From: DATDCY01 sp031406795 [NCBI: Candidatus Rokuibacteriota bacterium]
GTDB taxonomy: Bacteria; JAUVQV01
DNA: 7,609 bases
NCBI GenBank assembly: GCA_031406795.1
Contig: JANOHV010000182.1
Location: forward strand, 1 to 7,609
Reading direction: 5' to 3'
Made by a program: the position numbers and the translations under genes. Below, in pieces: positions 542 through 2,756 of this stretch. The notes under the pieces are model-generated. The model was given only the letters and a program-made list of their open reading frames with translations, was not told the origin of the DNA and ran no database searches. Every line of letters starts with the position of its first letter. Position 1 is the first letter of the stretch.

Positions 542-1489
542 GTGGCGATGCATCGGATCAAAATGGTGTGCGCGGTGGCGGCGGCCATCGTCGCCGGCGC
601 CTACCTCTACGCCCGCATCCTTGACTTCACCGCCGCCTCCGCAAGCGTGATTGACCCGCCGGTACACCGGATCGCGACCGCCGATGTCCGATTCCCGAGC
701 GGGGACCTCCTGATCGCCGGCACCCTGTACACCCCCTCCCCGCTCGCCGGGACCCACCCGGCCGTAGTCATCAGCCATGGCGGAACCCGCCGCGGTCGCC
801 GGCTCGCCCTCTTCACCGTAGCCGCCCGCAAGCTCGCCGAGCGCGGCTACATCGTGTTGACCGTCGATTTTCGCGGCTTCGGCGACTCGGAGCGGCCGCG
901 CAATTTCGAGGCCGCCGCGGATCTGGATTTCGTCCAGGACGTCGTCGCGGCCGTAGACTATCTGGCCACCCTCAAGGGCGTCGACGCCGGCAGAATCAGC
1001 GCCGTCGGCCACTCCTTCGGGGCCGGGGTCGCGGTCGCGGCCGCCCTGCGCGACCGGCGCATCGACCGGGCGGTTTCCATTTCGCCGGGGCGCAATACGG
1101 CCAAGCGCTTTTTCGGGCCGGGCGCCCCCGACCCCGGCTACCCGAGCCGGCGGATGTCCCGGGACATGGGCGTCGATCCCCCGATCTCCCGCGCGCTCTT
1201 CGACCCGCACCTGAAGGCCTATGTCGCCGAGGCGATACTCGACCATCCCGTCCACCCGCCGATCCTGCTCGTCGACGGCGATAAGGAGGCCCCCGACGAC
1301 CTGGCGTTCCTCGCGGATGTCGCCGCGCGGATGACCGGGCCGAAGGGCTATGTCACGATTCCCGGAGCCGACCACTACTTCGGCACCCGCCAGGACCAGG
1401 ACGGGTCCGCGGCAGCGCCGCCCTACGACGCGCCGGTGATGGACGCCCTCGTGAGCGCGATCGACACCTGGCTGAAGAAGAACTTCTAG
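542..1489 (+). CDS. Alpha/beta hydrolase (serine hydrolase, dienelactone hydrolase/S9-S15-like) with N-terminal membrane anchor or signal sequence
   Basis: A 315-residue protein. A short basic N-terminus (HRIK) and a hydrophobic segment at residues 9-27 indicate a signal sequence or signal anchor, so the catalytic domain probably lies in the periplasm. The domain starts near residue 47 with VRFPSGDLLIAGTLYTP, typical of dienelactone-hydrolase-like or X-Pro-peptidase-like enzymes. HGG (79-81) is the oxyanion-hole region. VLTVDFRGFGDS (105-116) is the conserved post-beta4 motif. GHSFG (156-160) is the nucleophile elbow, with Ser158. GADHYF (276-281) carries the catalytic His279. The acid is less clear: LLVDGDKEAPDD (243-254) has Asp248 and Glu250 near the usual Asp site. 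Substrate unknown; an ester or peptide is possible. The GTG at 542 is chosen because AGGGGA (531-536) sits at good spacing; the in-frame ATG at 548 is the alternative. It has its own promoter and converges on the radical SAM gene. Confidence 0.9.
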   Translation: MAMHRIKMVCAVAAAIVAGAYLYARILDFTAASASVIDPPVHRIATADVRFPSGDLLIAGTLYTPSPLAGTHPAVVISHGGTRRGRRLALFTVAARKLAERGYIVLTVDFRGFGDSERPRNFEAAADLDFVQDVVAAVDYLATLKGVDAGRISAVGHSFGAGVAVAAALRDRRIDRAVSISPGRNTAKRFFGPGAPDPGYPSRRMSRDMGVDPPISRALFDPHLKAYVAEAILDHPVHPPILLVDGDKEAPDDLAFLADVAARMTGPKGYVTIPGADHYFGTRQDQDGSAAAPPYDAPVMDALVSAIDTWLKKNF

Positions 1490-1527
1490 TGATTCTTTGA
1501 CCGTCCACTGAAATACTCGGTGAACGG

Positions 1528-1675
1528 GCAGGCAGCTCAAAAAGGTCCAGGTGCAAGGCGGGCGAGTCCTGAGGAATGAGGCGTACGACTGTACGCCGCA
1601 GTTCTCCCCCCACTCGCTGCGCTCGCAGGGGGCAAGGTGCCCACCGCCGCAGATGGGCCTTTTTCAGCCGCCTGC
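1528..1675. repeat. MITE/REP-like palindromic intergenic element with 22-bp terminal inverted repeats
   Basis: The left end (1528-1549, beginning GCAGGCAGCTC) and the reverse complement of the right end (1654-1675) agree at 19 of 22 positions; the left copy differs at one base each near its middle and at a T/C before CCA. Inside, TGC and GGCGG motifs continue the long-range pairing (about 1552-1561 against 1641-1651). A perfect 7-bp hairpin, GGCGTAC/GTACGCC, sits at 1580-1597 with loop GACT. A C-run at 1606-1611 can pair with a G-run at 1628-1632. No open reading frame in it looks real. The phrases at both ends (TTTTTCAG followed by a GCCTGC-like end, and GCAGATGGGCC) match my memory of abundant intergenic repeats in deltaproteobacteria, but I cannot verify that here. 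A non-autonomous mobile element mobilised in trans is the best reading. Its right end overlaps the last codons of the radical SAM gene. Confidence 0.65.
1539..1664. terminator. Possible bidirectional terminator formed by the palindromic element
   Basis: The convergent hydrolase (+) and radical SAM (-) genes end on either side of this palindrome. Read on the plus strand, the right arm ends in GGGCC followed by T5 (1660-1664). Read on the minus strand, the left arm ends in GGACC followed by T5 (complement of A5 at 1539-1543). Each strand therefore shows a GC-rich pairing arm followed by a U-run, as an intrinsic terminator would. The loop is long, so folding may go through the smaller internal hairpins first. 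On the minus strand the right-hand arm begins within the stop codon of the radical SAM gene. Confidence 0.4.
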
Positions 1676-2716
1676 GAACAGCCTCGGGAGGTTGCCGAGG
1701 ATGCTCTGGTACGCCTCGCACGGGGTCCAGCAGTGCGGGCAGCGCCCCTCGCGGATCTCCCGCCGCACCGCGAGCGTCTCCGGCGCGTTCCAGATGCGCC
1801 CGAGATCGTAGCCCTGCTCCCGGATGTTGCCGAGCGGACGGTCCCACATGCTGCAGGGGTAGACATTGCCCGTCGGGTCCAGATAGCAGGAGTCGTGCAG
1901 CGCGTGGCAGGGAAGCGGCGTCTTGCCGGTCCGCACGTAGTCCCCCACGCGCCGCAGGTAGGCCCACTCCAGCAGCGCGGCCGGATTGAGGTGGAAACCG
2001 CGCAGCAGCCGGTAGCGTTCGACTTCTTCGCGCATCGCGTCGCGGTCGAGATCCGTGAGGCCCTCGTCCTGGTTGCCGTAGAACGACGAGACGTGGACGA
2101 TGTTCACGTGAAAATCCTCGTAACGCAGCCCGGGCAGCTCGGTCTGCGCGGCGGCGAAGGCGGCCGGGAACTCCCTCATGTTGAACTGCGAGATTGTCAT
2201 GCCCAGGGCGGCCTGCACCCCGGGGATCGAGCGCAGCTGTCGGAAGGTCTCGATCTGGCGCCGCCACCCGCCCTTGACGCCGCGGATGTCGTCGTTGACC
2301 CTCTCGTCGCCGTCGGTGCTCACCGTGATGAAGAGCCGCTCGGGGCCGAGCGCCGCGATCCGCCGCACCCCCGCCACGATCCGGTCCGTGAGGTACCCGT
2401 TGGTCGGGAAGTTCAGCAGCAGCAGTCGCGGCGAGGAACGGATGATCGCCTCGGCGATCTCGACGAAGTCCCTGCGAAGGAAGACCTCGCCCCCGGTGAG
2501 GTGGGCCCAGGAGAGGCCGCGGTTTTTCGCGAAGAACTCCCGGATCTCCTCGAGCGAGAGTTCGTCCGCGGGCTTGAGCCGCCAGATGCCGCAGGTGCGG
2601 CAGCGATAGTTGCAGCGGTGCGTGACGGAAAAGAGCAGCTTGTAGGGAAAGCGGGGCCGCCGCAGGTTCGAAGCGGCGATCGTCCCGGCAAACCGCAGGT
2701 AGCGCAGGGGATTCAT
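1664..2716 (-). CDS. Radical SAM protein with SPASM/twitch-like auxiliary iron-sulfur domain
   Basis: A 350-residue protein from the ATG at 2716; an in-frame GTG at 2734 adds six residues, and neither start has a clear Shine-Dalgarno site. CNYRCRTC (residues 35-42) is the CxxxCxxC motif holding the radical-SAM [4Fe-4S] cluster. TGGE (74-77) is the SAM-binding GGE motif. NFPTNG (102-107) and TVSTDG (131-136) are later barrel strands. Only six further cysteines occur, all C-terminal: 270, 277, 288, 326, 329 and 333. GNVYPC (283-288) and CPHCWTPC (326-333) are SPASM-type wording and should bind at least one auxiliary cluster. Such enzymes modify peptides, sugars or cofactors by radical chemistry; the substrate here is unknown. 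The gene lies 40 bases after the GT-C glycosyltransferase gene and is probably co-transcribed with it, so a role in glycan or lipid-sugar modification is an inference. The stop codon and last three residues (AGG) lie within the palindromic element. Confidence 0.88.
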   Translation of the reverse strand: MNPLRYLRFAGTIAASNLRRPRFPYKLLFSVTHRCNYRCRTCGIWRLKPADELSLEEIREFFAKNRGLSWAHLTGGEVFLRRDFVEIAEAIIRSSPRLLLLNFPTNGYLTDRIVAGVRRIAALGPERLFITVSTDGDERVNDDIRGVKGGWRRQIETFRQLRSIPGVQAALGMTISQFNMREFPAAFAAAQTELPGLRYEDFHVNIVHVSSFYGNQDEGLTDLDRDAMREEVERYRLLRGFHLNPAALLEWAYLRRVGDYVRTGKTPLPCHALHDSCYLDPTGNVYPCSMWDRPLGNIREQGYDLGRIWNAPETLAVRREIREGRCPHCWTPCEAYQSILGNLPRLFAGG

Positions 2717-2756
2717 GGTGCGCGAGATTCGCACAGAAGCGGCGGCGGATCAAGCG

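Follow-up and report, generated by a model that had tools for sequence, protein, structure and literature searches.

What is the palindrome that lies between two convergent genes in this contig, and which machinery could have placed it there? The window, i.e., the whole stretch of 7,609 nucleotides that was analyzed, contains an alpha/beta hydrolase gene (542–1489, plus strand) and a radical SAM/SPASM gene (1664–2734, minus strand), which flank an inverted repeat that the original prediction described as a MITE or REP/BIME-type non-autonomous element rather than a simple terminator.

Architecture of the Element

The 148 bp palindrome at 1528–1675 is confirmed. Read in inverted orientation, the predicted arms (1528–1549 and 1654–1675) agree at 19 of 22 positions, the predicted nested pairing at 1580–1597 is present as a perfect 7 bp stem (1580–1586 with 1591–1597), and a repeat search of the window extends the inverted arms to 27 nt with 81% match (1528–1554 and 1649–1675). 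The element folds at -84.4 kcal/mol on the plus strand (z -4.4) and at -87.1 on the minus strand (z -4.7), in both cases with none of 200 shuffles as good, far better than expected by chance.

Alignment to relatives, combined with inspection by eye, places the whole element, a degenerate MITE copy with IS5-type ends, at 1501–1674 (plus strand, ~174 bp). In the relatives, an arm denoted A lies ~27 bp to the left of an arm denoted B, and it is A and the right arm R that form the terminal inverted repeats (TIRs), B being internal; a single base beside the A run usually sets B apart from A (TCAAAAA vs. TGAAAAA), and the typical element of the family, with A/R TIRs, is ~155–160 bp long without inserts. 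Of the two arms originally taken for terminal repeats, then, the right one is a true TIR and the left one (1528–1549) is internal, with the true left end ~27 bp further to the left. In the window, the A arm (1501–1519, plus strand) is degenerate (CCGTCCACTGAAATACTC vs. the family sequence CAGGCTGCTGAAAAACTC, consensus score 0.67), and the left boundary is uncertain because the automatic choice (ACAC, score 0.72) differs from the end set by alignment and by eye. No target-site duplication (TSD) is recognizable around the window copy, with TTGA at 1497–1500 and CGAA at 1675–1678 next to ends that were set by eye.

The B arm, GCAGGCAGCTCAAAAA (1528–1543, plus strand), pairs with the right TIR, TTTTTCAGCCGCCTG (1660–1674, minus strand), which was identified from the repeats, the ends of relatives and insertion sequence (IS) ends; the mismatches between the two are the usual C of the family beside the A run and one more. 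The conserved motif CCAGGTGCAAGGC (1547–1559), recovered by pattern search, alignment and covariance model, is the 5′ strand of stem P2, and GCAGATGGGCCTTTTT (1649–1664), which was used in the 17-mer count, represents the 3′ strand of P2 together with a T run. Between them, repeats, fold and model alignment delineate a second conserved motif, GAGGAATGAGGCGTAC, with the apical stem-loop P4 (1571–1597; arms GGCGTAC at 1580–1586 and GTACGCC at 1591–1597), followed by the 3′ side of the middle stem (1601–1645), all on the plus strand. According to the model alignment and to comparison by eye with three relatives (L056, L092 and L057), the latter region is diverged or expanded and contains an extra GC-rich hairpin (ACTCGCTGCGCTCG); 32 letters are aligned here against eight positions of the covariance model, and the right-hand GA loops of the family are missing.

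No Rfam family matched, the only candidate being RF00236 outside the element (394–445; 21.6 bits vs. the cut-off of 45). A separate palindrome noticed by eye, CGAACGCCGAACCGGGCCCCGGTTCGGCGTTCG at 402–434 between the first ORF and the hydrolase gene, is probably an ordinary terminator hairpin.

A Multicopy Family in Environmental Genomes

A scan with the left-half pattern, with one genome per species, yielded at least 120 loci; of the 123 pattern matches, including the window, 106 were analyzed and 17 were dropped as too close to contig ends. Among the matches listed, most titles are Deltaproteobacteria, of Desulfo- or Syntropho-type, or unspecific (Pseudomonadota, Proteobacteria, bacterium), the others being Geobacter, Nitrospirae, Methylomirabilota, Rokubacteria and one Anaerolinea bin. 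The covariance-model search that had been proposed recovers the window (1525–1675, 68.4 bits, E = 1.3e-17; next match at E = 0.21) with a model built from 42 copies that excluded the window copy. The family is present in all 36 seed genomes, in 1 to at least 94 copies (scoring stopped at 94) and in 30 or more copies in 21 of them. The expectation of a multicopy element is thus borne out in the genomes of relatives, the refuting condition of no similar elements in related genomes is contradicted, and the suggested likeness to repeats common in deltaproteobacterial genomes is upheld for deltaproteobacterial and related bins. The window copy is a degenerate member of this widespread multicopy hairpin family.

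Among evenly drawn genomes, with 11 candidates scored per genome, the family was found in 110 of 297 from the phylum of a Deltaproteobacteria-titled seed (G007), at least nine of the 110 being seeds. The phylum that is Nitrospirae by title (that of G102) has it in 34 of 99 genomes, seed included, and the phylum that is Anaerolinea by title (that of G120) in one of 151, namely the seed itself; phylum names are those of the record titles. All 120 loci carry MAG or bin titles, so that contamination is possible for single hosts, and the genomes, being bins, may be incomplete; the host assignment of the Anaerolinea-titled seed, with its one copy, is suspect. The 17-mer CGCAGATGGRCNTTTTT (window 1648–1664) matches in six of eight genomes, with 93 matches in the Methylomirabilota-titled G004, and its reversed-pattern control gave none in all eight. 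The core of ~90 nt is shared across genomes and up to 94% identical between Nitrospirae- and Deltaproteobacteria-titled bins.

As to the host of the window, two distant matches (31–32% identity) were obtained among 95 genomes of the phylum of G004, and nine of 395 genomes in that of G007 gave a match, the best being G118 with 53% identity.

The repeats also seem to break assemblies: seven contigs of G101 (C153, C177, C298, C319, C336, C344 and C357) begin ~55 bp from a TIR.

Terminal Repeats, Target Sites, and a Candidate IS5 Family Partner

The same core is found within at least two TIR classes, class 1 with TGAYGGCTTCGTAAAAAGTC and class 2 with CAGGYTGYTGAAAAA, the latter being the class of the window. 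Both ends could be scored in 57 of the 106 copies, and an exact 4 bp TSD is present in 18 of these 57, compared to an expectation of 0.57 obtained by pairing the left flank of one copy with the right flank of another; several TSD lengths and offsets were tabulated, and 4 bp outside the ends is the natural register. Class 2 alone supplied 54 copies; after removal of 20 in which an end was poor, an exact 4 bp TSD is seen in 13 of 34 vs. 2.79 expected, the expectation being raised by the common preference for YTAR. YTAR is the predominant target and occurs at the left end of 15 and at the right end of 22 of the 34 copies. The family is short, multicopy and dispersed, lacks coding capacity, and has TIRs and TSDs, the TSD being absent in the window copy; judged from these sequence features, the element is a MITE by definition, and the window’s class has IS5-family ends. 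An attenuator-like choice between A and B for the right arm, conceived on sequence grounds, was rejected given that A, in view of the TSDs, is just the end of the transposon.

IS5 elements use YTAR targets, and YTAR is also directly seen here. A scan of viral contigs with the class-2 end retrieved IS ends along with unrelated MITEs that have the same ends. Complete insertion sequences from the viral contigs L266, L267, and L273 carry the ends CAGGCTGCTGAAGAAGTC or CAGGTTGCTGAAAAA, are bounded by the duplications CTAG/CTAG, CTAA/CTAA, and CTAG/CTAG, respectively, and encode IS5 transposases (NF033581; 254, 250, and 291 bits with a cut-off of 140), so that a transposase flanked by the same ends, proposed as a check, is found. 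In an element-bearing genome (G008), an IS5_4 transposase gene (263 bits) is followed by a class-2 end and CTAA, one end being seen (L177). The MITEs with IS5-type ends (L154:670–824, two copies in L156, and L158:6527–6682) have, by eye, interiors unrelated to the element and duplications TTAA/TTAA or CTAA/CTAA.

The IS5_4 transposase was matched in six of 20 element-bearing genomes, above the cut-off in three; none was found in G004 (at least 94 copies, genome possibly incomplete). The stretches with IS5_4 examined in G114 and G001 (L179 and L180) contain no class-2 end, the second IS5_4 copy of G008 (L178/L184) has an imperfect left end only and no right end, and four of nine transposase relatives on viral contigs (L269–L272) lack recognizable class-2 ends. 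Among the 122 loci and the window, there are six pairs of class-1 or class-2 ends 0.67–3.1 kb apart, one of them class 2, and each encloses at least one element core; a class-1 end with two mismatches lies near the DDE locus L170. The putative assignment of an IS5-family partner, which follows from the shared ends, covers the CAGGYTGYTGAAAAA class, with no partner shown for the TGAYGGCTTCGTAAAAAGTC class. The trans-acting transposase implied by the original prediction thus has candidates in IS5 insertion sequences that share the ends of the element, the mobilization in trans itself being probable.

Transport as phage or plasmid cargo was rejected, the window copy having no match in phages or plasmids at E 1e-5. 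All 23 matches of a first viral scan were by chance, the element being absent, and a viral scan with the class-1 end found class-1 elements in four stretches of viral contigs.

A Hairpin Core with a Strand Preference

In the alignment of 42 copies, 28 pairs are formed in 97.4% of the cells. Two-sided change is observed in 11 of the 28 pairs, compared to 7.4 ± 1.1 after shuffling (0 of 500 as high) and at most six in slid structures. Opposite the GA of the left strand, which is partly fixed by the search pattern, the right strand, which is free, keeps GA, GA, and GCA in 36, 37, and 37 of the 42 copies. That CCAGRTGCAAGGC and GAGGMRYGAGGCGTAC do not vary is built into the search pattern, and where the pattern fixes the left G, the comparison of G-T with A-C proves nothing; at the pairs common to the folds of both strands, G-T occupies 13 cells and A-C one, these cells not being independent events. 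Arms B and R covary as well, with the own partner beating the mean of the others in 47 of 48 rows (0 of 2000 permutations); 73 of 100 rows were parsed, the 48 include a few class-1 rows, and the sole exception is a mis-parsed row. The C mismatch beside the A run is retained in 38 of the 48 rows, as counted by eye. By eye, too, the middle stems of L257 and L259 (phylum of G102) differ yet remain paired around the same motifs.

The consensus fold reaches -29.2 kcal/mol in the plus orientation vs. -13.5 when reversed, and the plus orientation folds better in 41 of the 42 copies with RNA parameters and in 40 with DNA parameters. It is also the better one in 43 of 49 further copies outside the alignment, the window copy being among the six exceptions, which brings the one-strand preference to 84 of 91 copies, a per-copy tally that is partly inherited from a common ancestor. 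Such a preference points to RNA or to one strand of single-stranded DNA.

These features bear on a weaker form of the explanation that we favor, namely, that the element is a plain MITE in which pairing is kept by template-switch repair and the core has no function, an alternative to which we assign a substantial chance, albeit short of an even one. MITEs are often palindromic, some copies, including that in the window, are degenerate, co-directional copies are oriented evenly with respect to the genes (28 same, 27 opposite), and the folding preference could come from one ancestor. However, repair should erase mismatches, yet GA or GCA opposite GA is kept at the frequencies given above, and the C beside the A run persists while the outer arms covary; the prevalence of G-T over A-C and the occurrence of a single core within two TIR classes also speak against it.

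We entertain, as a tentative reading that we hold to be possible, that the core functions as a structured RNA (or single-stranded DNA hairpin) of one strand with tandem G.A loops, an independent cassette that would have been picked up by at least two transposon end-types and spread horizontally. This reading would cover bins with the titles Deltaproteobacteria/Desulfobacterales, Geobacter, Methylomirabilota, and Nitrospirae, in which copy numbers reach 94 or more per genome, and stems that appear exchangeable and covarying.

An origin as a REP/BIME-like element, mobilized in the form of a single-stranded hairpin by a REP-associated tyrosine (Y1/RAYT) transposase, would also account for a strand-specific hairpin with conserved internal mismatches, and Y1_Tnp genes are present in 17 of 20 element-bearing genomes. 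This origin is very unlikely nonetheless, given the paired TIRs with 4 bp target duplications, which Y1 transposition is not known to make, the match of the element ends to a DDE insertion sequence, and the lack of a Y1_Tnp match in the remaining three genomes, all copy-rich although possibly incomplete (G105, at least 94 copies; G118, 53; G103, 30). We reject a RAYT/REP origin on account of these three genomes and the TSDs, so that of the two options in the original prediction, the MITE stands, being supported by TIRs, TSDs, and multicopy occurrence, and REP/BIME is not supported.

Some elements harbor further repeats. Hairpins of ~20 nt built on GGGTACCC or ACCC..GGGT were noticed by eye inside elements, often at the same internal site, in G004 (L227, L231, L233, L237, and L238) and in the phylum of G102 (L245, L246, L248, L249, L250, L260, and L262); they resemble a second tiny mobile palindrome within the element. 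The same longer insert, starting with TGATTTACCCTGTTAAA, occupies one core site in five loci of bin CSMAG_2168 (L029, L031, L054, L072, and L098) and seems to be another repeat that targets the hairpin element.

Placement at Gene Ends

The hydrolase gene lies outside the element, and the last residues and the stop codon of the radical SAM gene come from it, the stop (1664–1666, minus strand) being supplied by the right TIR at +11 from the scored edge. The predicted location between convergent genes is correct with regard to the orientation of the neighbors but does not hold strictly, the radical SAM stop codon lying inside the right arm. Among 51 gene 3′ ends near a scored element edge, 15 stop at edge base 0 (first codon) and seven at +11, including the radical SAM gene of the window. 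Most homologs of the radical SAM protein terminate within a few residues of the same position, with two longer, which suggests that no more than a short tail was replaced by the element.

Only three of the 106 copies lie inside an ORF, although the loci are 86% coding (ORFs from a simple script), and 16 have no scored neighbor gene. The other 87 comprise 55 co-directional, 18 convergent, and 14 divergent arrangements, with no clear preference for convergent genes overall when compared to the background gaps (302, 73, and 74, respectively); with both neighbors within 300 bp (n = 63), the counts are 40, 15, and 8. The even orientation relative to co-directional genes argues against a simple 3′-UTR role.

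That the element is an intrinsic terminator serving two convergent genes in both directions, and recurs only because of the resemblance among terminators, is hardly credible: the GC-rich stem with an A run ahead of it and a T run behind it, the convergent neighbors of the window copy and the 15 convergent vs. 8 divergent close pairs would fit, but the ~90 nt core common across genomes, the TIRs and TSDs, and the overall gene arrangement do not, and a scan for a stem-loop (loop of 3–8 nt) with a U tract found 0 sites at 1400–1800. The scan and the arrangement counts bear out the earlier statement that this is not a simple terminator, a possibility that we reject; terminator activity, including long-stem termination, could still be a side effect.

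Copies were also seen directly upstream of tRNA genes, at L118:2732–2880 (between tRNA-Arg and tRNA-Lys) and L257:519–651 (between tRNA-Val and tRNA-Asp), and an apparent tRNA, identified by eye only, follows the copy in L259; a tRNA is present in few of 60 scanned loci.

A Proposed Origin and Relationship to Known Repeats

Taken together, the observations make it very probable that we are dealing with a MITE family that has IS5-type ends in the window’s class and a conserved hairpin core that may be kept folded as a single strand. For the family, the observations cover its multicopy occurrence, the TIRs and TSDs, the ends held in common with IS5 insertion sequences, the placement at gene ends, and the structured core; the window copy itself speaks against the account in that a TSD and the right-hand GA loops are absent, the left TIR is poor, and the plus strand has no folding advantage. 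We propose that the element was inserted into YTAR sites through the action in trans of an IS5-family (NF033581-type) transposase. Given that such sites can be the stop codons TAG or TAA, the element edge would supply the stop and insertion at a gene end would be harmless. The covariation, the GA loops, and the one-strand preference suggest that what is retained is the core in the form of a folded single strand, perhaps as RNA transcribed through gene ends by analogy with ERIC and Correia elements, and the folded core would influence transcript ends or stability, or aid its own spread. With respect to the original prediction as a whole, a multicopy, mobile, non-autonomous element is upheld; overlooked were the point at which the element truly ends on the left and the structured core with its strand preference.

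The closest known systems are IS5-family insertion sequences and MITEs, which have the same TIR (CAGGYTGYTGAAAAA) and the same YTAR 4 bp target duplication; unlike the insertion sequences, the element has no transposase gene and has its own conserved core, which is also found between a second TIR class. ERIC elements are imperfect palindromes of a size similar to that of the element. According to PMC10969869, they are likewise intergenic, with tens to hundreds of copies, and present in E. coli, whereas our element has other hosts, identified IS elements with the same ends, and YTAR TSDs; the sister element L057 has no match at E 1e-5 in 5,426 E. coli genomes, in line with a different identity. 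The same source describes the Correia/NEMIS elements of Neisseria, MITEs with TIRs at which transcripts are processed, and Chunjie of Geobacter uraniireducens, a MITE of 178–235 bp with TIRs, direct repeats, and 38 copies (PMC10969869). Judged from these descriptions, the former shares the MITE organization and TIRs in different hosts, and the latter, from a related lineage and of similar build, could be related. Geobacter metallireducens has multicopy intergenic families, one palindromic family being common among Geobacter species, and its class 4, described as CCYTC repeats, does not fit the element (PMC2700814).

No described family was found in Rfam or among the papers listed in the literature searches, Chunjie and the Geobacter families being candidates for one. 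The surprise is in the core, which recurs within two or more TIR classes and shows two-sided covariation, opposed GA loops, and better folding on one strand. If our account is right, the family would be a counterpart of ERIC and REP for environmental genomes, with a candidate transposase partner and a target rule, and would help to explain gene ends and assembly breaks in these genomes. If the cassette reading were true, the core would represent an undescribed class of mobile structured RNA rather than transposon filler. That a covarying core with a strand preference lies within exchangeable transposon ends raises the question whether a mobile element serves here to carry a folded RNA (or single-stranded DNA) that is under selection.
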